Source of the DNA: Candidatus Baltobacteraceae bacterium
GTDB taxonomy: Bacteria; Vulcanimicrobiota; Vulcanimicrobiia; Vulcanimicrobiales; Vulcanimicrobiaceae
NCBI GenBank assembly: GCA_035502855.1
Contig: DATJTX010000024.1
Coordinates: 62,001 to 126,000, forward strand
Reading direction: 5' to 3'
Length of the DNA stretch: 64,000 bases
The notes below the pieces were generated by a model that worked only from the letters and a program-made list of their open reading frames with translations, did not search any database and was not told where the DNA came from. Below are positions 4,287 to 43,232 of this stretch, one piece after another. Positions within the stretch are counted from its first letter, which is position 1; each line of letters begins with the position of its first letter. The translations under genes were made by a program, and so were the position numbers.

Positions 4287-5230
4287 GGTTGATCCGCGTA
4301 GGCGCGGATGATCTTGGACACGAGCGGATGGCGGACGACGTCGGTTTCGTTCAATTCGATTACGCCGACCTCCGCAAGGTCGCCGAGACGACGCGCCGCG
4401 TCGCGCAAGCCGCTGCGCTGGCCCGCAGGCAGATCGATCTGCGTCACGTCGCCGTTGATCACCATCTTCGACCCGGCGCCCAAGCGCGTGAGAAACATCT
4501 TGAGCTGCGCCGCGGTTGCGTTTTGGGCCTCGTCGAGGATCACGAAGGCATCGTTCAACGTGCGGCCGCGCATGTAGGCGAGCGGCGCGACTTCGATCGT
4601 CCCGCGCTCGAGGTACTTCGCCACCAATGCGAGATCGAGCAGGTCTTCGAGCGAATCGTAGAGCGGACGCAGATACGGATCGACTTTCTCGCGCAAGTCG
4701 CCCGGCAGGAATCCCAACTTCTCGCCGGCTTCGACCGCCGGACGCGAGAGAATCACGCGCGAGATCTCGCGGTTTTTGAGCGCGCGTACCGCCATCACGA
4801 CGGCAAGGAACGTTTTTCCGGTACCGGCGGGACCGATGCCGATCGTGAGCGGATTGTTCTCGATCGATTGCACGAACGCGCGTTGCCCAGCCGTCTTCGG
4901 ACGGACCTCTTTTCCGCGCGCGCTGCGGATCAGCGTGGGCGGAATCGCCCGCCCGTTGCTGCCCTCGCCCGCATCGGCGATCGCGAGCGCCACGTCATCC
5001 GGCGTGATTTGCGCGCCCTCGAGTGCCGCGTCCAGCATGCGCCGCACCGCCTGCTCGGCACGCTCGACGTTGGCGGAGGTCCCGGCGAGAAACAGGCGGT
5101 CGCCGTCGGCGCGAACGCTCACCCGTAACCGCTCTTCGAGTGCGGAGAGATTTTGATCGAGTTGTCCGAAAAGGCGGACGCGATCTTCGAGATCGCTTAG
5201 ATCGACGGTTCGCTGTGACGTGGACTCCAG
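4283..5230 (-). CDS. phoH: PhoH family ATPase (YbeZ type)
   Basis: This is the PhoH/YbeZ P-loop ATPase that partners YbeY. The Walker A 'GPAGTGKT' and the DEAQN Walker B-like motif ('VILDEAQNATAAQL') are present. Family-like N-terminal sequence ('VRLFGQLDQNLSALEE') continues in frame upstream of the GTG at 5122, so I place the start at CTG 5230: AGGAG lies eight bases upstream and no ATG, GTG or TTG is available there. That gives 315 residues, a normal length, instead of 279. If CTG is not used, GTG 5122 is the fallback. It overlaps the Pro-rich gene by 34 bases. Confidence 0.9.
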   Translation of the reverse strand: MESTSQRTVDLSDLEDRVRLFGQLDQNLSALEERLRVSVRADGDRLFLAGTSANVERAEQAVRRMLDAALEGAQITPDDVALAIADAGEGSNGRAIPPTLIRSARGKEVRPKTAGQRAFVQSIENNPLTIGIGPAGTGKTFLAVVMAVRALKNREISRVILSRPAVEAGEKLGFLPGDLREKVDPYLRPLYDSLEDLLDLALVAKYLERGTIEVAPLAYMRGRTLNDAFVILDEAQNATAAQLKMFLTRLGAGSKMVINGDVTQIDLPAGQRSGLRDAARRLGDLAEVGVIELNETDVVRHPLVSKIIRAYADQP

Positions 5231-5634
5231 ATCGATTGCTCCTGAAACGCTTTTGGTGAGCCGAGAACTTCTGCGGCGACGATCGCCCGCACGAGCGTCG
5301 CGCTTCCTCCGAACATACCACGGATCGGCGAGGTTCCAATCCGCGGCGGAACGTGAAGCGGCGGCTCCGATGGGGATGGCGGCGCGTCGACCGGCGGCAT
5401 CTCAAATGGCTGCGCCGGTATGACCATCCGGGCCGGCGGCGGCGTTGCCGGGCGCGGCGGGGGTGCCGGGCGCGGCGGGGGTGCCGGACGAGGCGCCGGC
5501 GGACGCGAGGACGGCGCCGCCGTCTGCGGTTGCGGTGCGGCGCGCCCGCGCGCGCCCCGCACGTTCTTACGAATGCTCGAGATCACCCCGATCAATACGA
5601 TGGCGATCCAGATGAGCGCGCCGATGCCGTGCAC
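5197..5634 (-). CDS. Membrane-anchored proline-rich protein of unknown function
   Basis: A 145-residue protein that I do not recognise as a named family. It starts with one transmembrane helix (about residues 4-20), then a basic stretch and a Pro/Ala/Arg linker (about 35-70) built of 'RPAPP' type repeats. It ends in a short conserved-looking segment around 'TLVRAIVAAEVLGSPKA'. Such a 'membrane anchor, Pro linker, AEVLG(P)P tail' layout occurs in small Firmicutes-type proteins of unknown role. GTG start with AGGGA upstream. It lies between floA and phoH in the same direction. Confidence 0.7.
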   Translation of the reverse strand: MHGIGALIWIAIVLIGVISSIRKNVRGARGRAAPQPQTAAPSSRPPAPRPAPPPRPAPPPRPATPPPARMVIPAQPFEMPPVDAPPSPSEPPLHVPPRIGTSPIRGMFGGSATLVRAIVAAEVLGSPKAFQEQSIWSPRHSEPSI

Positions 5635-5643
5635 GATCCGTCC

Positions 5644-6654
5644 CTATCTGGGCGGCTGCGTCTGGCCGGCATCCGGCGGCGGACCGCCTTCGACGCTGCC
5701 GCCGATCGCGTCGCGCATGCCGGTATCCGCCTGCAGATTCTTCAGGCGGTAATAATCCATCACGCCGAGGTTGCCGCTCTTGAACGCGTCTGCGATCGCG
5801 AGCGGAATCGCGGCTTCGGCGGCGACGACTTTGACCCGCATCGCCTGCGTTTCGGCCTTCTGCTCTTGCTCCGCAGCCTGCGCCGCATACTGCCGCTCGG
5901 AGGCCTTCGCCTGGGCGATCTTACGATCGGCGTCGGCTTGCGAGGTCTGCAGTTCGGCGCCGATGTTCTTACCCACGTCGACGTCGGCGATGTCGATCGA
6001 AACGATCTCGAACGCCGTTCCGGCGTCGAGCCCTTTGGCGAGCACCGTCTTCGAAATGCGGTCCGGATATTCGAGCACTTCCTTATGATCGATCGCCGCG
6101 CCGACCGCGGCGACGACGCCTTCGCCGACACGCGCGATCACCGTTTGCTCGCCGGCGCCGCCGACGTAGCGGTCGAGATTGCTGCGCACGGTCACGCGCG
6201 CTTTGACGTTGAGTTGAATGCCGTTCTGCGCTACGCCCTGGAACGTCGGCGTTTCGATGACCTTGGGGGTGACCGAAGTCTGCAGCGCTTCGACGACGTT
6301 ACGACCGGCCAAATCGATCGCTGCGGCGCGCTGCCAATCCAGCGGAATCTGCGCGCGCTGTGCGGCGATCATCGCCAGCGTGACGTTCTCGACGTTGCCG
6401 CCGGCCAGAAAGTGCGACTGCATCTGATCGACCGTGAGGTTGAGGCCGGCCTTGCGTGCACGCACGTAGTTCGCGACGATGACGCTGGGCGGAATGCCGA
6501 TCAGGCGCATCCGCACCAAGGTGATGATGCCCAGCGGCACGCCGGCCGCGATCGTGCGGATCCATGTTCCAATCGGAAAGTAATACAGGAAGACGAAGAA
6601 CAGGATGATCGCGACGAAAAAAACGATCACCACACCGGCGGTTGCGAGCCCCAC
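5644..6654 (-). CDS. floA: Flotillin-like protein FloA
   Basis: FloA (YqfA) is a membrane-raft scaffold with an SPFH-like core. The 336-residue product has an N-terminal hydrophobic hairpin (about residues 5-30 and 36-55), the family block '[18 protein letters not shown]', a central SPFH region and a long Ala/Glu/Gln-rich coiled coil (about 240-300). GTG 6654 is preferred over TTG 6663 because GAGAGG lies ten bases before the GTG and only one or two before the TTG. The nfeD-family gene immediately upstream is the standard partner (yqeZ-yqfA order). Confidence 0.92.
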
Positions 6655-6670
6655 GCTATTCAAACCTCTC

Positions 6671-7984
6671 TCATCGGTAGTCGGGTAGTGTTACCGGCTC
6701 TACGAATACTCGCGCGCCTTCGACGCGCGTTACGCGGATGGGCGTTCCCGCCGCAATGAATTCTCCCTCGGTCAGTACGTCGACGCGTTTGCCGTCGATC
6801 TGCGCAACACCCGCGGGGCGCAGATAGGAAGCGGCAACACCCGTTTTGCCGAGCAGCGACTTGAAATCGCTGCTCGTCACATAGTCTGCGCCTTGCGCGT
6901 CCACCAACGCCAAACGGCGCATCCACGCGTTCTCGGGAAAGACCCGCGTCAGCAGCGCAAAGCAGATCGCGGTCATGATTATCGCCGTCGAGAACGTCTC
7001 GACCGCGATGAAAAAGAACGGAATTCCAAAGGCGAGCAAGACGGCGGCGAGCAAGGCGAGGCCGCCCAATATGCCCGGAACGCCGTGACCGGGGACGACG
7101 TGCAGTTCCCACAAGATGCCGATCAGCCCGGCGATCGCGAGCGCGATCACGAGGCCGTTCGAGAACCCGGCCTCCACGTGCGTTCCGAAGAAGAGCGCGA
7201 GCGCGCCGACGCCGATCGTACCGGCGATGCCGTGCATCGTCTGCATCTCGAGAATCAGACCCAACATGCCGATGGTCAGCAACAGGCCGCTTATTTCGGG
7301 CGTGTTGGCAAAGCGCGCCAACTCTTCGCCCCAGGTATAGGCGGTCGTTTGCCGCGGATCGCCGGCGAGACGCTCCGAGGCGAGCGCCGCGTCGAGCGAG
7401 GGTTCGATGGCGTCGGCCATGCCCGTCTTCACCGCGTCCTGGGCCGAGAGCGTCAGGATCGTTCCCGGCGTCTTATAATCGGGCACGTCGATGTTCTTAT
7501 CGACGAACGCCGCGGCGAGTTTGGCGGGACGATGGTTGCGCTGCGCGGTCGAGACGAAGAGCGACTTGAGCGCCGAGATGGTTTCGGGGTCGGTGGGATG
7601 CGGTTCGGCCGACCCGATGACGGAACCCGGCGCCATCATGATATGCGAGGTCGAAAGCGTGATCAGCGACGCGGCCGAAAACGCGCGATGCTCGACGTAG
7701 GCGATGACGGGTTCGTGCGCGGCGAAGATCGCGGCGCGGATATCCTCGGCCGCTTCGACCAGCCCGCCGTTGCTGTTGACGTCGAGCACGACCGCCGCGG
7801 CATGTTCGCTATCGGCCTGCGCGATCGATCGCTGCACCAAATGCGCCATCCCGTCGTCGACCATGCCGGTGATCGGTACGATCACCACCGGACTGGTGGG
7901 GGACGCCGCCCGCGCGAGCCCGGCAAGGCCGACCGTCGCGAACGCCAGAGCGAACGTGACCCGTAACAAGCGCATACCAACCAT
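6671..7984 (-). CDS. NfeD family membrane-bound ClpP-like serine protease
   Basis: The 437-residue protein begins with a signal peptide (about 1-26), followed by a ClpP/crotonase-fold domain (about 30-225) with the substrate-facing '[12 protein letters not shown]' and the nucleophile region '[10 protein letters not shown]'. Four or five transmembrane helices follow (about 230-350) and a C-terminal OB-fold NfeD domain ends the protein. This is the YqeZ/NfeD1b arrangement. Such proteins cleave stomatin or flotillin partners and support raft assembly, in keeping with floA seven bases downstream. ATG 7984 or the ATG at 7975 could start it. Confidence 0.92.
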
Positions 7985-8021
7985 GCCGGATGCTACCTTC
8001 GCGGCAGGGCAAGGTTTCTTT

Positions 8022-8468
8022 CTAGCCGCCGAGTTCCTCGGTGACGATCTCGCGGATCAGGTTGCCGTCGGCCTGCCCTTTGAGCTGAGGCATCACCGCC
8101 TTCATCGCAGCGCCCTGGTTGCGCGCGCCTTCGGGCAGCGCAGCCAGCGCCGCTTTGACGATTGCCCGGATCTCCTCGGCGGATTTCTGCGCCGGGAGAT
8201 AGGCGCTCAAGATCTCGCGCTCGGCGCGTTCCTTGTCGGCCAAGTCGGCACGGCCCGCTTTCTCGAACTCGGCAAGCGAGTCGCTGCGCTGCTTGACCAG
8301 CTTCTGGACGACCGCCAGTTCGTCGGCGTCGGAAAGCTCGGTGCCGGCTTCACTCCGTTTGTAGGTAAAACCGGAGAGGGCCGAGCGCAGCGTATCGAGC
8401 CGCAATTGGTCGCGCGCCTTCATCGCCTCCTTGAGATCGGAGGCGATGCGGTCTTTCAAACGTCCCAT
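8022..8468 (-). CDS. GatB/YqeY domain-containing protein
   Basis: A 148-residue helical protein of the YqeY family, which resembles the C-terminal tRNA-binding domain of GatB. The N-terminal 'LKDRIASDLKEAMKARD' and the C-terminal 'GADGNLIREIV' equivalent ('GQADGNLIREIVTEEL') are characteristic. The role is not firmly established; a tRNA-related function is inferred from the fold. It lies nine bases after rpsU, the usual order in many bacteria, and probably shares the rpsU promoter. Confidence 0.93.
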   Translation of the reverse strand: MGRLKDRIASDLKEAMKARDQLRLDTLRSALSGFTYKRSEAGTELSDADELAVVQKLVKQRSDSLAEFEKAGRADLADKERAEREILSAYLPAQKSAEEIRAIVKAALAALPEGARNQGAAMKAVMPQLKGQADGNLIREIVTEELGG

Positions 8469-8477
8469 CTCGAAGGG

Positions 8478-8648
8478 TTACGCGCGGCGCTTACGAGCGG
8501 CCGCGGACTTCTTCTTGCGGCGAACGCTCGGTTTTTCGTAGTGCTCGTGCTTGCGCGCTTCGGCGAGAATACCCGCCTTCTGGGTGGCCTTCTTGAAACG
8601 GCGCAGCGCGCTCTCTATCGACTCACCTGGAGCTACGCGGACTTCCAT
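8478..8648 (-). CDS. rpsU: 30S ribosomal protein S21
   Basis: A 56-residue, very basic protein with the S21 core '[17 protein letters not shown]' and '[14 protein letters not shown]', ending in an Arg/Lys/Ala tail. S21 assists base pairing between mRNA and 16S rRNA during initiation. ATG 8648 was chosen because it gives the standard S21 N-terminus ('[17 protein letters not shown]') and has a strong AGGGGGG ribosome site upstream; a longer reading frame to 8732 is not supported. The gene has its own -35/-10 promoter and precedes yqeY. Confidence 0.96.
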
Positions 8649-8722
8649 TGTTGATTGACCCCCCTTTCGGCACGCGCGGAGCGCGGCAAAATCTCGGCCT
8701 CGAACACGGGGCCGGCTGGGGT

Positions 8723-8751
8723 ACTGTAGCACAGGCGTCCGAGGCCGTCAA
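8723..8751 (-). promoter_or_regulatory. Sigma-70 type promoter for rpsU-yqeY
   Basis: On the minus strand TTGACG (8751-8746), a 17-base spacer and TACAGT (8728-8723, preceded by TGC, so also an extended -10) form a good housekeeping promoter. Transcription would begin near 8716, leaving an untranslated leader of about 70 bases before rpsU. The -35 overlaps the last codons of the PIN toxin gene. Confidence 0.75.
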
Positions 8752-9212
8752 ACCGGCTCTTCGCTGCGTCCCGGATTCAGCGTTGCCAGCCCTTCCGATC
8801 GCGCTGCCCCCTCGAGGCTGATGTCGGCGCACGCGAATCTCACCGGCTCTCCGCCGGCGGAGCGCGGCATCACGAGGCACCCGGCCAACTGCATTGCGTC
8901 GTAAGCACGCAGCGTGTAACGGTCGATCAGTTGCAGCGCCGTTTCAACCGTGGCCTCGGTTATGGGTTGCCGGATAAACACCTCGGCCAGATGCTTCGCA
9001 AATGCCAGGAGGATGCCGTCAGCGGCGTCGGCACCAACATCGCCTGCTCGCTCGCGCCGTCGGATCGCCGCATGAAATTCGACCGGCGCGAGTGATAGCA
9101 CCGTGAAGGTGTGCGATGGCGTGGCGTTCGCGAGCCGGAGCATTTCTTCCGTGCCCGGCTCGCGAACATACAGCTTTACGAGAGCGCTTGTGTCGAGGTA
9201 GTACAGCCCCAA
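8748..9212 (-). CDS. PIN domain ribonuclease toxin (VapC type)
   Basis: A 154-residue PIN domain protein. The N-terminal 'YYLDTSALVKLYVREPG' carries the first metal-binding Asp; an acidic 'PVEFHAAIRRRE' and 'RAYDAMQLAG' supply further active-site residues, as in VapC toxins, which cleave tRNA or rRNA. The start is a TTG three bases after the stop of the upstream gene, so the two are coupled. That upstream partner is much longer than a usual VapB antitoxin. This is one of three PIN, RES or MazF-type toxins within 18 kb plus one at 35 kb. Confidence 0.85.
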   Translation of the reverse strand: MGLYYLDTSALVKLYVREPGTEEMLRLANATPSHTFTVLSLAPVEFHAAIRRRERAGDVGADAADGILLAFAKHLAEVFIRQPITEATVETALQLIDRYTLRAYDAMQLAGCLVMPRSAGGEPVRFACADISLEGAARSEGLATLNPGRSEEPV

Positions 9213-34603: not shown

Positions 34604-34628
34604 GACCTGCAGCTGCGACATGTGCTTC

Positions 34629-34672
34629 TGACTACACTTTACGTAGTCACGCAGATGGACTATGCTAAGTCC
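34629..34672 (+). promoter_or_regulatory. Promoter with two inverted repeats for the Xre/RES locus
   Basis: TTTACG (34638-34643), a 17-base spacer and TATGCT (34661-34666) form a promoter whose start falls at about the ATG 34673. Inverted repeat 1, TGACTAC / GTAGTCA (34629-34635 and 34643-34649), covers the -35; inverted repeat 2, GGACT / AGTCC (34657-34661 and 34668-34672), covers the -10. Both contain the half site GACT, as expected for an autoregulating Xre antitoxin. Confidence 0.65.
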
Positions 34673-35056
34673 ATGGCCTGGACGATCGACGCCCGCAAGC
34701 TCTCGCCGCGTAAACTCAGCGAGTTAGGGGCTATGCAGCCGCGCCTTCTTCGGTTGGCGGAAATCCTCGGAACCCGGCCGCTGGCCGGCCTCCTCGGTAT
34801 GGACCCTGGGAACCTCACCCAGATGGTCGCTGGGAAGCGCAACGTGCCCGAGGAGATCGCCAAACGTGCGCTCGACCTCGACCACGTTCTGGCTCGCGCG
34901 CTCCAGGTCTTCGGAGACGCCCAGGTGGTCGTCGATTGGCTCGAGGGAACGGAGCCGACATTCGGCTTTGGGAAACCAATCGTCATGCTCTCGAAGCATG
35001 GTGCTGGTCCCCTGCTCGACGTGCTCGACGCGATCGACGCAGGAGCCTACACGTGA
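34673..35056 (+). CDS. Xre/MbcA/ParS-type antitoxin
   Basis: A 127-residue antitoxin with a helix-turn-helix half ('LRLAEILGTRPLAGLLGMD') and a DUF2384-like C-terminal part ('ARALQVFGDAQVVVDWLEG' and 'GPLLDVLDAIDAGAYT'), the fold that binds RES toxins. I chose ATG 34673 because the promoter predicts a transcription start at or very near it; longer frames start at GTG 34622 and ATG 34655, which lie upstream of or inside the promoter. Its stop overlaps the toxin start as GTGA. Confidence 0.85.
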   Translation: MAWTIDARKLSPRKLSELGAMQPRLLRLAEILGTRPLAGLLGMDPGNLTQMVAGKRNVPEEIAKRALDLDHVLARALQVFGDAQVVVDWLEGTEPTFGFGKPIVMLSKHGAGPLLDVLDAIDAGAYT

Positions 35057-35595
35057 GGCTGTATCGCGTCTTTCCTTGGGATCCCAGTGCCGCCATGGAC
35101 CGACCAGGCGGCGCTCTTTTTATCCCACGGTCGAGCACCGGCAGCTTCGATAACCCAGACCTCTTCCAGGGACTCTACTGCGCGGCGTCTCCCGAGGCAG
35201 CCATCGGCGAACGGTTCGCCAGACTCCGCGCGTGGCGCCCAGCGACCTTCCAGAATGCCAAAGCCACGTTCGCGCTCGCGACGATCGACACCCAAGACCT
35301 CGCCCTCGCCGACCTAGGCCACGTTCCGACGCTGACCAAGCTTGGCATACAGCGCGTGACCGATGTGGTCACCCGGGACCGAGCCGTCAGCCAACCCGTC
35401 GCCGCCCGCGCATACCACCTGGGCGCGGCGCACGGTCTTAGCTGGTGGTCGGCCTACGTCGCGGATTGGACGAACGTGTTACTCTGGGATACCACCCGCT
35501 TGACGCTGGTCGGCCAGCCTGAACCTTTGAGTGTCGCGCATCCGGCGGTCGCCGCTTCGGCCGATACGCTCCCGCGCTCAGTTGTCTTGCGGTGA
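35053..35595 (+). CDS. RES domain toxin
   Basis: A 180-residue protein of the RES family, which in characterised systems depletes NAD+. Visible motifs are the N-terminal 'LYRVFPWDP' Arg, the glycine-rich 'GLYCAASPEAAIGE' with Tyr and Glu, and 'AYHLGAAHGLSWWSAY' in the core. The GTG start overlaps the antitoxin stop by four bases. Together with the TIR protein 650 bases further on, this locus places two predicted NAD+-consuming proteins side by side. Confidence 0.88.
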   Translation: MRLYRVFPWDPSAAMDRPGGALFIPRSSTGSFDNPDLFQGLYCAASPEAAIGERFARLRAWRPATFQNAKATFALATIDTQDLALADLGHVPTLTKLGIQRVTDVVTRDRAVSQPVAARAYHLGAAHGLSWWSAYVADWTNVLLWDTTRLTLVGQPEPLSVAHPAVAASADTLPRSVVLR

Positions 35596-36241: not shown

Positions 36242-37981
36242 ATGACTCTGTGGCGAGCCATTGCCGATAAGCTGAGCATTGCAAGAATGCTTCTTGCCGC
36301 ACGCATTCCGTCATGGTGGGTCCGAATTGTGGTGCTCGCAGGCGTCTACACCGCCGTGATGCTCGTCGTGACGTTGGCAATCCCCGCATGGCACGACTGG
36401 GATTGGCGCTTCTTCTCATTGTTGAGCTCCCGCGCCGCGCCGGTTTTTTCACAGGACCTCACCATCGTCGACGTCGCTTGGGACCCGAAGATCTCCGGGA
36501 TTCCGGCCGACCGCCTCCGCGTCGCAAGTTTTCTCAATGGCCTGGTGAAGACCGGCCTCGGACAAACCCATCAATGGCCCGATGGCGTCATCCTCGATTT
36601 CCGGTTCTACCCCTGTCATTCGCAGCCGTGCACGCTCGACGAGCGCAACGCTCGTGACGCGCTGGTGACGAGCATCCGCACTGCGACCTATTATTTTCCC
36701 GTCTATGCGACCGAGCAATTCCCGGTGGACGTCGCCTACGATCAGGCGGCTGGACCGCTCGACCCCCAGGATCAAGCAATCTACGCGGCCGTGAGCGGAG
36801 CAGCGGACACCATCTTCATCAGCAATACGCGCGAAAGCGGCCTTTTCTACCGCCGTTGTTACAGCCAGGTTCCCGTTGTCTCCGGTGACATTCAAGCTTA
36901 CGAGGACGTCTGGTCGATGGTCGCGCGCGTTCTGATGCTTCCGACGCGCGGCGGCGCAACGCTTCCCGCGTGCGACCCCACCGAGGTCGCGTTGCGCTTA
37001 GGCCCAAAGATCGCGCTGGCCGCGCCCACCGTGTATCGCTTCACGAACGCATCCGCATTTCAAAACTACCCGCAGCTCGACGGAACGTACGTCATCGTCG
37101 GTACGATCGAGTATGACAGGTCGCCCTATGCGGATCGAAGCGGTCCCGAACTGCTCGGCTGGGCGCTAAGCAACGCGCGTGACCAGGGCCTGATGGACTA
37201 CTATGACGTGCAGCCCCAGAATCGGTTCCTTCTCTTGCTTATCCCCGTCTTTTCGGCATTGGCCGTGCTCGTGTATGCCGCGACGTTTTTTCTGCTAAAG
37301 CGTACTCGTCTACGCGCGGCGCGCCATTTGCTTCCGGCTCTCTCGTCGGTAATCGCGCTGGCGCTCGGCCTGGGCATCTTCCTGCTCTTCGAATTCTGGA
37401 TGTTCTCCTCGCACCACATCCAGCCGCAAGTATCTTTGATTTCCATCGGTATCGTCGTCGCGTCGGGGCTCGGATTCGTCCGCGGATCGCAAGTCTTGAA
37501 CGACGAACGCAATGCCATCGAACCCCTTCCAGTGGAAGCCTACGACTACGATGTCTTCGTCAGTTATGCGCGCGAGGACGGCGCCTGGGTTTATGAACAC
37601 GTGTACGTTCCCCTGCGCGACGCCACGCTATCGAACGGTGAAAAGCTCTCGGTCTTCTTCGACACGTCCGCCATTCGCGGAGGCAGCGACTGGCAATCGA
37701 AGATAACTCTTTCGCTCGATGCCAGCCGCTTCGTCGTGCCGGTGTACTCTGAAACGTATTTCACGAAACCGTATTGCCGTTTCGAGATCATGCGCGCGCA
37801 CCGAAAGTGGATCAATGCCGGCATCGAGTCGCGCTGCGTCTTCCCGGTCATGCTCGGCCATCCCAAGATTTACGAACCGGTCAGCGACATCCAAGCCCGC
37901 AGCATCGACGACGACCCGAACGTCGTCCAGGAGTACATCGCCGAAATCGTCGACCGCCTCTCGCATGGGCCGGTGACCTAA
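36242..37981 (+). CDS. CHASE2 sensor with C-terminal TIR domain
   Basis: A 579-residue membrane protein. One transmembrane helix (about residues 24-46) precedes an extracytoplasmic CHASE2-like domain (about 70-305) beginning 'DLTIVDVAWDPKISGIPADR'. Three helices follow (about 329-351, 362-385, 393-410), and residues 434-575 are a TIR domain starting 'YDYDVFVSYAREDGAW'. The 'SETYFTKPYCRFE' motif keeps the Glu (Glu515) that is catalytic in NAD+-cleaving TIR proteins. CHASE2 is usually coupled to cyclases or kinases, so TIR as output is unusual. ATG 36242 has GAGG a few bases upstream; an upstream in-frame ATG lacks support. Confidence 0.87.
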   Translation: MTLWRAIADKLSIARMLLAARIPSWWVRIVVLAGVYTAVMLVVTLAIPAWHDWDWRFFSLLSSRAAPVFSQDLTIVDVAWDPKISGIPADRLRVASFLNGLVKTGLGQTHQWPDGVILDFRFYPCHSQPCTLDERNARDALVTSIRTATYYFPVYATEQFPVDVAYDQAAGPLDPQDQAIYAAVSGAADTIFISNTRESGLFYRRCYSQVPVVSGDIQAYEDVWSMVARVLMLPTRGGATLPACDPTEVALRLGPKIALAAPTVYRFTNASAFQNYPQLDGTYVIVGTIEYDRSPYADRSGPELLGWALSNARDQGLMDYYDVQPQNRFLLLLIPVFSALAVLVYAATFFLLKRTRLRAARHLLPALSSVIALALGLGIFLLFEFWMFSSHHIQPQVSLISIGIVVASGLGFVRGSQVLNDERNAIEPLPVEAYDYDVFVSYAREDGAWVYEHVYVPLRDATLSNGEKLSVFFDTSAIRGGSDWQSKITLSLDASRFVVPVYSETYFTKPYCRFEIMRAHRKWINAGIESRCVFPVMLGHPKIYEPVSDIQARSIDDDPNVVQEYIAEIVDRLSHGPVT

Positions 37982-38034: not shown

Positions 38035-40239
38035 ATGGCCGGCTGGATACGCGCCTGCTTTTTGCTCGCCCTCGCGATATCGATGCAGGGACCTGCGTTC
38101 GCGGCGGCGCCGCGCGTGCATACGGTCAAGCAAATCTTCCTGGACGGGAAGCGGGCGGCGACGGCCCAGGTGACGGTAACCCGCGGAACATCCGTGCGGC
38201 ACACGCTGCAGCTCGGGGAAACGATCCTAGATGGGACACGCATCGACGTGCCCGCCCACGTAGTCGCTGTTATCGCGAGCACCGGCGGCAAGAGCACGAT
38301 TACCCTCGAGCCGGGGGCCAGTATCACGTTCGTGAGCACCGGGGCGGGCGAACTCGTGAAGCGCAACGGCGGGAACATGACGTTCGACATCGTGCCCCAC
38401 AGTCTCAATTTCTTTCAAGTCCAGTCCGGCGTGGCGCTCTCGGCTTCGGTCCCCGGAACGGTATTTTCGATAACCGGAAGCGACGGAAGCGTGACGTTCG
38501 CGTGTACGCGGGGCGAGATCAACGTCAGCAAGACGGGATACCTCGTCATCGGCACGGCCTCACCGTTCAAAGCGACGCTCACGGACGTGGTCGCGGCGGC
38601 AGGAATGTCGCACATCACCTATCATCCCACCGGCACATGGTTCTTGGCGAAGTTTTCGAACTACGCGCAGGCAGAAGCGTACTACGAACGGCAGCTCGTG
38701 TTGGCGCGCAAGAGCAAGGACTCCAATGCAATCGCGGTTGCGCTTCGAAATCTTGCCACAGTCCAGTGGCACGCCGGCGAATATCATGCGGGGATCCAAT
38801 CGTTCGGCACGGCACTTGCGGTCGAACGCGAGCGCCGCAACCTCGTCGGCGAGGCGAACGCGCTCAAGGGTATTGCGGTGATCGAAGATACACAAGGCGA
38901 TCATGCGCAGGCGCTTCGCACGTTTGCTCAAGCCCTCGCCCTTTATCGACAGGAGAACGATCGCGAGGGAGAAGAGGCAGTTCTTAGCAACACTGCAGTT
39001 ACGGCGGATGAAGAGGGCCGCGAGGACGACGCACTGCGTTTGCAAAGTCAAGCTTACGCGTTGAGTCGCGCGCTCGGCGATCGAGACTCCGAGGCCTACG
39101 ACCTTATCGACATGGGAAACGTCCGCATCCATCAGGGCCGGTACGCCACCGCAGCGGAACTGAATAAAGAGGCGCTCGCGTTGCTCGTTCCCCTCCACGA
39201 TGCTTACGGGCAAGGACTGGATGAAAGCAATCTTGGCTTGATCGCTTCGCAGCAGGGCCGGTACGCCACTGCGCTCCAGTGGTTTGCGCAGGCACTTTCG
39301 CTCGACCGCACGTTGGGAGATCTCGACGGCGAGGCGATCATTCTCGGTAATATCGGGAACGCGCAACAACATCTGGGCAAATACCCGGAGGCGTTGAATG
39401 CCGAGGAGCAATCGCTTGGGCTCTATCGCCGAATCGGCGACCGCGGGAACGAGGGTTACGCGCTCATCGGTATCGGCCTGATCCAAATGTTCGAAGGGCG
39501 CTACGCGGAGGCACTGCAAGCGGGGGAACAGTCATTCGTGCTCGGGGGAGCCGTCAACGAACCCGAAATCGAAGAAGGCGGTCTTCTCGATGTCGCGCTG
39601 GTCCAATGGCGCGAGGGGCAATACGATGCAGCGTCGGCGACATCGCAAAAGAGCCTTGCGGTTAGCAAACCGATCGGCGGCGACGACGAGGGAAGCGCTT
39701 TGGTCGTGCTGGGTTACGTGCAAAACAGCCTGGGTCAATATTCAGCCGCAATGAGTTCGGAGCAACAGGCGCTGACGCTCGTACAGAAGGCGGGGGACGT
39801 CGACGGCCAAGGCGATGCGCTCAGTGGATTGGGCCTCGCGCTGCTTGGCCTGGGAACCGACGCCGATGCGCTTGCCTCCGAGCAGCACGCGCTCTCCCTC
39901 TATCGTACCGTTTCCGACCAGGACGGTCAGGGGCGTGCCCTCGATGACTTGGGCCGAGTTCAAACCGCGCAAGCTGCGTACGCAGACGCAATGCGATCGC
40001 TCCAAGCCGCGCTAAAGATTTTCCGCTACATTGGCGATCCTCACGGCGTGGCCGACTCGCTCGCCGACATCGGCGCGATCGACGAAAAACAATTGCAGTA
40101 CGGCGACGCTCTGCAATCGTACCAGCAGGCGCTCGCACTCTATCAGCAAGTCGGGGACCACTTCAACGCTCCGAAGATTGCGCAGGCTCTCGCCCGCGTT
40201 CAGGCTCTTCTGCACGCAGAAGCGAGCCCCACCCCGTAG
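38035..40239 (+). CDS. Secreted FecR domain protein with many TPR repeats
   Basis: The 734-residue protein has a signal peptide (about 1-22), a FecR domain (about 30-160) with 'TILDGTRIDVPAHVVAVI' and 'GTVFSITGSDGSV', and then about 13-14 tetratricopeptide repeats with a 40-residue period (about 190-720; 'GEYHAGIQSFGTALA', 'GRYATALQWFAQALSL', 'GQYSAAMSSEQQAL'). FecR-type domains bind periplasmic or surface ligands, and TPRs bind proteins. It starts 53 bases after the CHASE2-TIR gene on the same strand, and CHASE2 and FecR proteins are frequent neighbours, so a joint sensing unit is likely (inference). Confidence 0.88.
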   Translation: MAGWIRACFLLALAISMQGPAFAAAPRVHTVKQIFLDGKRAATAQVTVTRGTSVRHTLQLGETILDGTRIDVPAHVVAVIASTGGKSTITLEPGASITFVSTGAGELVKRNGGNMTFDIVPHSLNFFQVQSGVALSASVPGTVFSITGSDGSVTFACTRGEINVSKTGYLVIGTASPFKATLTDVVAAAGMSHITYHPTGTWFLAKFSNYAQAEAYYERQLVLARKSKDSNAIAVALRNLATVQWHAGEYHAGIQSFGTALAVERERRNLVGEANALKGIAVIEDTQGDHAQALRTFAQALALYRQENDREGEEAVLSNTAVTADEEGREDDALRLQSQAYALSRALGDRDSEAYDLIDMGNVRIHQGRYATAAELNKEALALLVPLHDAYGQGLDESNLGLIASQQGRYATALQWFAQALSLDRTLGDLDGEAIILGNIGNAQQHLGKYPEALNAEEQSLGLYRRIGDRGNEGYALIGIGLIQMFEGRYAEALQAGEQSFVLGGAVNEPEIEEGGLLDVALVQWREGQYDAASATSQKSLAVSKPIGGDDEGSALVVLGYVQNSLGQYSAAMSSEQQALTLVQKAGDVDGQGDALSGLGLALLGLGTDADALASEQHALSLYRTVSDQDGQGRALDDLGRVQTAQAAYADAMRSLQAALKIFRYIGDPHGVADSLADIGAIDEKQLQYGDALQSYQQALALYQQVGDHFNAPKIAQALARVQALLHAEASPTP

Positions 40240-40248
40240 CGACGACGC

Positions 40249-41952
40249 TTATGTCGGCGGGTGCGGGTCGCCCAATGCGGTCGCGATGGCGCGGTAGACG
40301 TTGAGCCGGCCGCAGCCCTGATGCGGATCGTAGATGTTATCGGCGGTACTGCACAAGAGTTCTTTCATCGCGGTCGGCGACTGGTAACTCGAATTCACCG
40401 AGAGCACGAGCGCGGCGGCACCGGCGACGTGCGGGGTCGCCATCGAGGTCCCGGCGATCTCGGTCAGGCAGTTGCCGGGCTCATTGAACTGCGGATCGTC
40501 GCACTGGCCCGCGTAGCTGCTATCGAGCGGCGTCGTCGTCCAGATGTTTTCGATCCAATGCAGGTAGTCTTGATCCGTATCACCGGTCGGATCGCCGCCC
40601 GGTGCAACGATGCCCCACGAGGCCGAACTGTTGAGCGTGTTGACCGAGCCGTATTGCGAGTAGCTCGCCACGTATTCCGTATTCGAACCGGAGTAGCCGG
40701 TGCCGTTCGCCGCGCCGTCGTTGTAGGCGCTCGCGCCGACCGCGATCACCCCCGGGTCGCAGCCGGGTGCCGACACGCCCGAGCCCCCGCTGTTGCCCGC
40801 GGCGGCAACGACGATCACGTCGCTCGCGATCGCGTTGGCAATCGCCTCGCCCTCAACCGGGTCGGGGTCCGCTCCGCTCACGCACGAGCTTCCGCCTAGA
40901 CTCATGCTGATCACGTTCGCGCCGTTGTTCACCGCGTCGTCGATGGCGCTCGCGATATCGGTGTCTGTTGCCGTGCACTGCGGGTCGGTCGAGTTCGGAT
41001 TGGTGCAATTATCGTCGGGTGTCGGGAAGACCCGATACAGCATCAACGACACGTTGCCGGCGTCGCCCGCAAAGCCATAGTCGTTGTTCGCGTTCCCTTC
41101 GGCGATGCCGGTGACGTCCGTACCGTGCCCGTCCTCGTCGGTCACGTACGTGCCCGTGCTTTGCGCATTGCTGTTCGGATCGGTGATGAAGCACTCGGTG
41201 CGCACGATACTCGCCTTGGCAAGCTCCGGATGCGTCACGTCCTCACCGGTGTCGATGATCGCCAACTTCACGTTGGTCGAGCCGAGCGCTGCGGCGTTGG
41301 TGATTCCGCTGCCGTTGTTCAACTGCGAATAATCGAAAGCGTGCTCGAGCTGCACGACGTGCATGTCCCACTGCCCGCCGACCGCGCTGTTCTCGTAGAG
41401 CGGTGCGGGGACGCCGGACTGGCCGTCAAAATACGGGTCGTTGCCGAGATAGGGGCCATTGACGCTCAAGGCGGAGAGACGCTGCGATTCGCCGACCGCG
41501 ACCACGCCCGGCGTCGCGCGGAGCGTCGATTCGACCGCGCTCGCGTCGGCGGGCGTGACCCGCACCAATCGGGTCGCGTATCCGATCTTTGCATAATCGA
41601 ATTCTCCGACGTTCGTCCCACCGATACGCGCATCGATCGTGACCGCCGGATTCGCGATCACGGATGGACGATAGGTCACTTCGATCAGTCCCGGACTCGC
41701 GATCACTCCCGACGCCTTACGATACATGCGTCGCGTAACCGATGCCGATCCCGCTGCACGCGCAACCGACGAAGCGCTATCTGACGAAGGACACGTGTAA
41801 GCGGATGACGAGCCGCCGCTCGGCGCGCTCGTGGGCTCCATTGTCGCAATTGCGGCGACGCTGCTGCCGCCGCCTCCGCCGCCGCACGCGGCGAGAGGAA
41901 TCAACAGCAGCGCTGCCGTGAGTGACGCGCCAAAACGAGCAAGCAGAATCAA
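40249..41952 (-). CDS. Subtilisin-like (S8) serine protease, lipoprotein
   Basis: A 567-residue S8 protease. The lipobox 'LAAC' puts the lipid on Cys23, followed by six Gly, as in the S53 proteases of this window. A pro-region precedes the catalytic domain with the triad Asp234 ('IIDTGED'), His276 ('DGHGTDV') and Ser503 ('GTSMATPH'). I start it at TTG 41952 with GGGAGG six bases upstream, which gives a clean signal peptide; the longer frame to 42006 overlaps cinA and adds an unlikely N-terminus. It is convergent with the FecR-TPR gene and follows cinA. Confidence 0.92.
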   Translation of the reverse strand: MILLARFGASLTAALLLIPLAACGGGGGGSSVAAIATMEPTSAPSGGSSSAYTCPSSDSASSVARAAGSASVTRRMYRKASGVIASPGLIEVTYRPSVIANPAVTIDARIGGTNVGEFDYAKIGYATRLVRVTPADASAVESTLRATPGVVAVGESQRLSALSVNGPYLGNDPYFDGQSGVPAPLYENSAVGGQWDMHVVQLEHAFDYSQLNNGSGITNAAALGSTNVKLAIIDTGEDVTHPELAKASIVRTECFITDPNSNAQSTGTYVTDEDGHGTDVTGIAEGNANNDYGFAGDAGNVSLMLYRVFPTPDDNCTNPNSTDPQCTATDTDIASAIDDAVNNGANVISMSLGGSSCVSGADPDPVEGEAIANAIASDVIVVAAAGNSGGSGVSAPGCDPGVIAVGASAYNDGAANGTGYSGSNTEYVASYSQYGSVNTLNSSASWGIVAPGGDPTGDTDQDYLHWIENIWTTTPLDSSYAGQCDDPQFNEPGNCLTEIAGTSMATPHVAGAAALVLSVNSSYQSPTAMKELLCSTADNIYDPHQGCGRLNVYRAIATALGDPHPPT

Positions 41953-41978
41953 GGGAACCTCCCGGGGTGCGCTTGAGC

Positions 41979-43232
41979 TTAGCGTGACAAGCTTAGAAAA
42001 CGCCAAACCAAACCGAGCGCCATCACGGTTGCCCGGCGCTGTACTGCGTCGCGGTCACCGCGGAAATGAAAACGATATGTCTTGCTTTCCCCCTCTGCGT
42101 CGATGGCGAACCATACCAAACCAACCGGCTTCTCGTCGCTCCCGCCGTCGGGACCGGCGATGCCTGTGGTCGAGAGGCCGTAGTTGGTATGGAGACGTTC
42201 GCGCACGCCGCGCGCCATCTCCCCCACCGTCTCTTCACTCACCGCGCCGTAGCGCTCGAGCGTTCGCCCGCTCACGCCGAGCTGCTCCACCTTGACCGCA
42301 TTGTCGTACGCCACGATCCCACCGAGGAAACTCTGCGACGAACCCGGCACCGCGGTCAGCGCCGCCGCAATCCGGCCACCCGTACACGACTCCGCGACCG
42401 CGATCGTCGCAGCGCGCGCCCGCAGAAGCTCGTGCACCGCGCCTTGCAGCGTGAGGTCATCGGCGCCGAAGATAAATCCGTCGAGGCGGCCTCGGATCTC
42501 GGTCTCGAGTTGTGCGATCATCGTGTCGGCGAGGTCTTGCGAATCCGTCTTGGCCATGATCTTCACGTCGCACAAGCCCTCGTGAGCGAGGACGGCGATC
42601 TTCGGATTCTCGCTCGCGCGAAAGAGATCGTCGATGCGGTGGTCGATCTCGGATTCGCCGATGTTGACGGTGTGGAGCACGCGCGTATAGATGGCTTCGC
42701 GCACCGCGTAACGTTCGCGTAAGAATGGAATTAAGAGGTCGGTGAGCATCGGGCGCATCTCGCGCGGTACGCCCGGCATACACGCGATGAACTTCCCGTC
42801 CTCGCCGAACGCGACGAACCCGGGAGCCGTGCCGCGCGGGTTCTCCAGCACGAGACTGCCGCGCGGCACATACGCTTGTTTGCGATTGTTCTCGCGCATC
42901 TCCCGCCCGATCTGTGCAAAGAATTCTTGCATTTGCTTAAGAGAGGGCTCGTTTAATTCTACGTCGAGTCCGAGTGCGTCACACACGGCTTCCTTGGTTA
43001 CGTCATCGATTGTCGGCCCGAGTCCTCCGGTTGTGATGACGCCGGTTACTCGCTCGAGGGCGCCACGCATCGCACTCGCGATTCGCGCGCGATTATCGCC
43101 GACCGCGTGTGTGCCGTACACGTCGATGCCGTTTGCGGCGAGCGACTGCGCGATGAAGACCGAGTTCGTGTCGGTCTGCTGGCCGAGCAGCAGCTCGGTG
43201 CCGACTGCGATCAGCTCGACGCTAAGGGGCAT
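41979..43232 (-). CDS. cinA: CinA family competence/damage-inducible protein
   Basis: A 417-residue protein with the full two-domain CinA layout: an N-terminal MoaB/MogA-like domain ('VELIAVGTELLLGQQTDTN', 'TTGGLGPTIDDVTKEAV') and a C-terminal NMN amidase domain ('TIAVAESCTGGRIAAALT', 'TGIAGPDGGSDEKPVG'). Such proteins hydrolyse ADP-ribose or NMN and belong to the pyridine nucleotide cycle, which fits nadE two genes upstream. ATG 43232 gives the normal N-terminus 'MPLSVELIAVGTE' and overlaps the previous gene by 11 bases. Confidence 0.94.
   Translation of the reverse strand: MPLSVELIAVGTELLLGQQTDTNSVFIAQSLAANGIDVYGTHAVGDNRARIASAMRGALERVTGVITTGGLGPTIDDVTKEAVCDALGLDVELNEPSLKQMQEFFAQIGREMRENNRKQAYVPRGSLVLENPRGTAPGFVAFGEDGKFIACMPGVPREMRPMLTDLLIPFLRERYAVREAIYTRVLHTVNIGESEIDHRIDDLFRASENPKIAVLAHEGLCDVKIMAKTDSQDLADTMIAQLETEIRGRLDGFIFGADDLTLQGAVHELLRARAATIAVAESCTGGRIAAALTAVPGSSQSFLGGIVAYDNAVKVEQLGVSGRTLERYGAVSEETVGEMARGVRERLHTNYGLSTTGIAGPDGGSDEKPVGLVWFAIDAEGESKTYRFHFRGDRDAVQRRATVMALGLVWRFLSLSR

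Follow-up and report, generated by a model that had tools for sequence, protein, structure and literature searches.

A CHASE2-TIR membrane receptor gene and its FecR-TPR neighbour as a putative envelope-sensing TIR signalling pair

Genes for CHASE2 receptors lie beside genes for extracytoplasmic proteins in two described systems. In the Burkholderia BiofilmReg operon, a LysM-FecR gene accompanies the gene for a CHASE2-histidine kinase (PMC5192318), and in magnetotactic bacteria mtxA is followed by a CHASE2-cyclase gene (PMC4439547). The Sinorhizobium CHASE2 cyclases CyaD1/D2/K respond via the outer-membrane protein NsrA, which acts upstream of them (PMC13001267). The locus analysed here resembles these operons in that a CHASE2 receptor (one helix, an ectodomain and three helices) is encoded next to an extracytoplasmic protein, which carries a FecR domain as in Burkholderia. 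It differs in that the output domain is a TIR domain and neither a histidine kinase/response regulator nor a cyclase, in that TPR or Sel1 repeats replace LysM in the FecR protein, and in that effector genes are linked to the locus in relatives. A homologous ectodomain and the membrane layout are shared by CHASE2 adenylate cyclases from this phylum and from Sinorhizobium, and there too the signal reaches CHASE2 via another envelope protein, but their output is a cAMP cyclase where the present receptor has its TIR domain.

On the output side, SLATT proteins have been predicted to be membrane effectors regulated by ADPr derivatives, TIR-SLATT neighbourhoods have been noted, and the SLOG domain of ThsA has been described as the sensor of cADPR variants made by TIR domains (PMC9503650, PMC7159879). 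Thoeris, which combines the TIR protein ThsB with the SIR2-SLOG effector ThsA, has in common with the present system a TIR domain with a putative catalytic Glu and, in relatives of the host, a SLOG-bearing effector encoded nearby. Unlike in Thoeris, the input here is an extracytoplasmic receptor, and the effector is SLOG-SLATT without SIR2 and is unlinked in the genome under study. Burroughs and Aravind predicted TIR/SLOG/SLATT conflict systems in which TIR genes neighbour those of SLATT membrane effectors, with TPR-S and patatin proteins as extras. Half of the CHASE2-TIR loci have this arrangement and the window locus does not, and the proposed sensing of the cell envelope through CHASE2 and FecR-TPR sets the present loci apart. 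Animal Toll-like receptors also have an ectodomain outside the cell, a membrane helix and a cytoplasmic TIR domain, and the TIR domains align; their ectodomains are unrelated to CHASE2, however, and their TIR domains are adaptor platforms, such that the analogy is one of architecture only. As far as is known, the TIR systems that have been characterised in bacteria respond to intracellular cues. Each module of the present system is known, and both the FecR-CHASE2 and the TIR/SLOG/SLATT pairings have a precedent or have been predicted. A literature search (CHASE2 with TIR; CHASE2 with FecR; SLATT with patatin, Thoeris or CHASE2) did not find the combination described, and what appears new against that literature is CHASE2 feeding a TIR domain, in combination with these partners.

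The receptor and its neighbouring genes

The window (the whole 64,000-nucleotide stretch of DNA analysed here) comes from an uncultured soil bacterium and contains the following features.

34622-35595, + strand: RES toxin with Xre-type antitoxin; adjacent to the receptor gene, not conserved
36242-37981, + strand: CHASE2-TIR membrane receptor, whole gene with stop (579 aa; 13 homologous loci aligned)
36311-36391, + strand: transmembrane helix 1, residues 24-50 (hydropathy; also a helix in the model)
36392-37216, + strand: extracytoplasmic CHASE2 domain, about residues 51-325 (profile-profile match to CHASE2 cyclases; CHASE2 in a paralogue and 7/14 homologues; model)
37217-37486, + strand: three transmembrane helices, residues 326-354, 362-390 and 395-415 (hydropathy; helices in the model)
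37544-37966, + strand: cytoplasmic TIR domain, residues 435-575 (TIR_2 match; similarity to solved TIR domains)
37784-37786, + strand: codon of Glu515, putative catalytic glutamate (aligned with homologues, ROQ1 and, via homologue L036, AbTir)
38035-40239, + strand: FecR-TPR partner gene, with signal peptide, FecR domain (about 38287-38520) and TPR array from about 38731 (profiles, adjacency, co-occurrence)

The receptor open reading frame begins with an ATG at 36242, with GAGG 5-8 nt 5' of it, and its stop is at 37981. Hydropathy and the helices of the structural model together give an N-terminal helix, an ectodomain, three helices and a TIR output domain, which is the arrangement of CHASE2 receptors, and the sensor is likely to face outward with the TIR domain in the cytoplasm. 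An earlier note on this DNA had read the gene as a membrane helix, a CHASE2-like region, three further helices and a complete TIR domain retaining Glu515 in a PYCRFE motif, and the reading frame, hydropathy and profiles bear out that description.

The evidence for CHASE2 comes from the family. A search for domain profiles, as the earlier note had proposed, found TIR in the window protein but gave no direct Pfam match to CHASE2 there at E ≤ 1. The full-length paralogue on contig C21, which is about 35% identical, exceeds the CHASE2 cut-off (E 2.4e-8), and 7/14 homologues match PF05226 (CHASE2; best 8.5e-10). Alignment of the receptor family with CHASE2 enzymes from its own phylum (16 proteins, nearly all of them adenylate/guanylate cyclases) gave a probability of 96.2% and an E of 2.6e-9 over residues 22-317 (hhalign). 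The region, though divergent, is therefore correctly called CHASE2-like, and the assignment holds at the level of the family. The ectodomain was modelled with good quality (pLDDT 84, pTM 0.81); comparison of the model with the PDB returned no match with E ≤ 0.001, and the fold does not indicate a ligand.

The TIR_2 profile covers residues 438-555 of the window receptor (E 2.5e-16, above the curated cut-off) and is matched by 14/14 family members. When the AlphaFold model was compared with solved TIR domains, VIA-align Z values of 13-16.5 were obtained over residues 432-579, and the structural neighbours include the NADases of SPARTA, RUN1, RPP1, AbTir and SARM1, a resemblance that the earlier note had suggested looking for. 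That note had also allowed for homologues in which the glutamate is not conserved; Glu515, at which the PYCRFE motif ends, is kept in all 14 aligned sequences, at identities down to about 33%. Tyr511, the aromatic position ahead of it, is likewise invariant across the family and is Trp in AbTir, presumably Trp204. Glu515 aligns with Glu86 (E86) of ROQ1, and the equivalent Glu of L036 aligns with chain position 78 of AbTir (7uwg), which with a numbering offset of 130 we infer to be E208. In AbTir, E208 is a published catalytic residue (PMC10022894). The aligned Glu is also kept in the TIR domain of human TLR2. That domain is usually regarded as a non-enzymatic adaptor, and Glu515 alone is therefore permissive evidence and no proof of catalysis. 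The topology, the fold matches and the invariant Glu515 all fit a receptor that would couple an extracytoplasmic CHASE2 sensor to a NADase-type TIR domain of putative activity.

The true partner of the CHASE2-TIR receptor, missed by the earlier note, is the next gene, which encodes the secreted FecR-TPR protein and in the window follows after a gap of 53 nt. A FecR-TPR homologue lies directly downstream of CHASE2-TIR in 12/14 loci, 11 of them with a spacing of ≤53 nt (a 4-nt overlap in most cases) and the twelfth at a distance of 344 nt, and at one further locus it is found two genes upstream. The FecR profile was found in 12/14 partner proteins, with the window copy under the Pfam cut-off; the FecR part is conserved, while the repeat part varies and may be TPR or Sel1. 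Matches to the FecR module of >200 bits occur in exactly the 10/99 genomes of the host family that have CHASE2-TIR. One additional genome has a 75-bit match and, with that genome included, co-occurrence gives a Fisher p of 7e-13, although the family genomes are phylogenetically related and neither these counts nor the p-values are independent.

One genome (G083; L077, L078, L079, L080, L081 and L082) encodes several FecR-TPR paralogues, including a tandem pair, that have no CHASE2-TIR gene next to them, which suggests an expanded sensor repertoire. No other CHASE2-effector fusion was found beside orphan FecR-TPR genes. At L032 (10321-11439, +), a secreted GDSL/SGNH hydrolase gene takes the place of FecR-TPR directly downstream of CHASE2-TIR, with a 4-nt overlap, and at L024 (7465-8223, +) another such gene lies upstream. 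The window gene convergent with FecR-TPR (40249-42006, -) encodes a secreted subtilase-family (S8) protease with no homologue at the other loci.

Upstream of the receptor, the RES open reading frame ends about 650 bases away, a distance correctly given by the earlier note, which had hinted at a common connection with NAD+. That proximity is what would favour reading the receptor and the RES/Xre toxin-antitoxin pair as a single NAD+-targeting island. RES and Xre are present at 0/13 other CHASE2-TIR loci, however, which rules the pair out as part of the receptor unit, leaves the functional link unsupported and makes such an island hardly credible.

The genome of the host (G000) has two more CHASE2-TIR paralogues, on contigs C21 and C16. 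Homologues are present in 10/99 genomes of the host family, and widening the search to 149 genomes of the phylum added no further CHASE2-TIR genomes. A contig search limited to close relatives gave matches from Eremiobacterota only, and restriction to the phylum is not claimed on this basis. Plasmids, phages and viral contigs gave no match, and a mobile-element origin was rejected on that ground.

SLOG-SLATT genes in relatives of the host

All-against-all neighbourhood comparison together with tblastn located a SLOG-SLATT gene near CHASE2-TIR in 7/14 loci. The encoded protein has an N-terminal SLOG-like region (with VVGVTGHRD and GGT motifs) followed by two SLATT/DUF4231 segments; the assignments, which are mostly below curated cut-offs and combine several weak profiles (including DprA and YAcAr) with motifs, describe a putative nucleotide sensor joined to a predicted membrane effector. 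Its placement varies: in G004 and G012 it is adjacent to the CHASE2-TIR locus and divergent from it, in G026 it is collinear with FecR-TPR and follows it downstream, in G087 it stands immediately upstream, in G094 and G096 it is upstream of a TPR-S gene, and in G080 it is about 6 kb distant. Four of these 7 loci also have patatin genes, which resemble the CBASS phospholipase family (Pfam to 4.6e-27), and the gene between SLOG-SLATT and CHASE2-TIR in G094 and G096 encodes a TPR-S/MAP3K_TRAF_bd protein (PF20308, 1.3e-21).

TPR-S/MAP3K_TRAF-binding proteins are bacterial relatives of the ASK1 sensor region and were seen at L036 (9582-10946, -), L037 (9799-11200, -) and L106 (315-1787, +); in G097, one is encoded about 6 kb from SLOG-SLATT. 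Near the CHASE2-TIR locus of G087, about 2 kb from its FecR-TPR end, is the gene for a second TIR protein, TIR-DUF4062 (L035 1796-3265, -).

No effector is linked at the other 7/14 receptor loci, although two of these lie on short contigs (6-11 kb). No SLOG-SLATT or patatin gene is present within the 64 kb of the window, and the two paralogue loci are also without linked SLOG-SLATT. The genome does contain a single SLOG-SLATT gene, on another contig and with no TIR gene beside it (G000:C5:8020-9531), and its connection to the receptor would therefore be in trans.

Across the host family, SLOG-SLATT is present in 30/99 genomes, including 10/10 that have CHASE2-TIR (Fisher p 2e-6), and a TIR_2 gene is present in 30/30 SLOG-SLATT genomes versus 46/99 overall (Fisher p 5e-14), p-values that overstate independence because the genomes are related. 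A TIR gene lies ≤5 kb from SLOG-SLATT at 18/30 loci, against 0.35 expected. In genomes without CHASE2-TIR, other TIR architectures take up this position, among them a TIR protein of genus g32 at 49-97 nt and a TIR-NB-ARC-TPR protein at 30 nt in G018, with further TIR genes near SLOG-SLATT in G020, G079, G027, G009 and others; most of the TIR proteins of these other architectures that were aligned keep the Glu. That one effector recurs next to several TIR architectures unrelated to each other argues strongly for a functional pair.

At L110, a TIR-NB-ARC-TPR gene and SLOG-SLATT abut (4849-7536, -, and 7488-9110, -), so that an NLR-like TIR input accompanies the same effector module. Divergent TIR genes lie 90-97 nt from SLOG-SLATT in two g32 genomes (L105 10006-11130, +; L111 9519-10607, +). 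In related g32 TIR proteins the TIR domain is followed by a hydrophobic segment, and the g32 TIRs may therefore be membrane-bound too.

Proposed signalling and its alternatives

We think it somewhat better than an even bet that the gene pair forms an envelope-sensing TIR signalling receptor, in which the TIR domain, with putative enzymology, would make an NAD-derived messenger and SLOG-SLATT would carry out the membrane response. The FecR domain would dock on or gate the CHASE2 ectodomain, while the repeat array would bind a variable extracytoplasmic cue. Binding of ligand or partner may then be passed on through the four helices as a rearrangement of receptor dimers that brings the TIR domains together, upon which NAD+ would be cleaved via Glu515 and an ADP-ribose-type messenger released. 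The SLOG domain of SLOG-SLATT would read this messenger and the SLATT helices would permeabilise or depolarise the membrane, perhaps assisted by the patatin lipase in some species, with suicide, dormancy or an ion-flux response as the output. In the genome of the window, SLOG-SLATT would act in trans and could serve the three CHASE2-TIR paralogues as well as a fourth TIR protein. Several observations speak against this pathway: the window has neither SLOG-SLATT nor patatin, half of the receptor loci have no effector linked to them, the SLOG and SLATT assignments and the FecR match of the window are mostly below cut-offs, and Tyr511 stands where AbTir has Trp. The earlier note had proposed that an outside signal is converted into either NAD+ depletion or a messenger; the coupling of CHASE2 to a NADase-type TIR fits the evidence, and the SLOG-SLATT effectors linked in relatives tilt the choice to a messenger, but the tie to RES is not supported.

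One alternative is that the receptor itself kills, the activated TIR domain depleting NAD+ with no need for a messenger or for SLOG-SLATT at the window locus. A NADase-type fold with its Glu is what such a receptor would have, and neither the window locus nor the two paralogue loci have linked SLOG-SLATT, yet we consider this reading unlikely given that SLOG-SLATT is encoded in every one of the ten CHASE2-TIR genomes and linked at half of the 14 loci. A regulatory receptor for envelope stress or development, with a non-lethal NAD-derived messenger acting on an unlinked receptor as the cAMP of CHASE2 cyclases does, would agree with the CHASE2-FecR operons that regulate biofilm or symbiosis elsewhere (PMC5192318, PMC13001267), with the nucleotide cyclases that make up most of the CHASE2 proteins examined in the phylum, and with the window having no linked effector; the linkage of SLOG-SLATT and CBASS-like patatins in relatives points instead to membrane attack and makes such a role rather improbable. 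The TIR domain might also be a non-enzymatic adaptor that, once the envelope has been sensed, brings in a further TIR or TPR protein, as in animal Toll-like receptors. The topology is the same as in those receptors, human TLR2, in which the aligned Glu is kept too, is the best-scoring match for the TIR of paralogue L024, and further TIR genes are present in these genomes. Against this, many NADase TIRs are among the structural neighbours and linkage to a SLOG domain implies a nucleotide signal, such that we regard an adaptor role as distinctly improbable.

Returning to the messenger-based pathway, it is possible, at somewhat less than even chances, that these loci represent an undescribed class of innate-immune or suicide receptor with a Toll-like layout, in which a FecR-TPR/CHASE2 complex would lead through a TIR-made, NAD-derived messenger to SLOG-SLATT pores and patatin lipases, and in which the alarm would be triggered outside the cytoplasm and not by an intracellular phage component. 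If this is true, TIR signalling can take its input from envelope cues, such as phage adsorption, predators, envelope damage or neighbours, and Toll-like receptors would have a bacterial counterpart as regards layout. For the long-standing prediction about SLOG and SLATT, the repeated association of TIR with SLOG-SLATT across the phylum also offers a testable messenger-effector pair.
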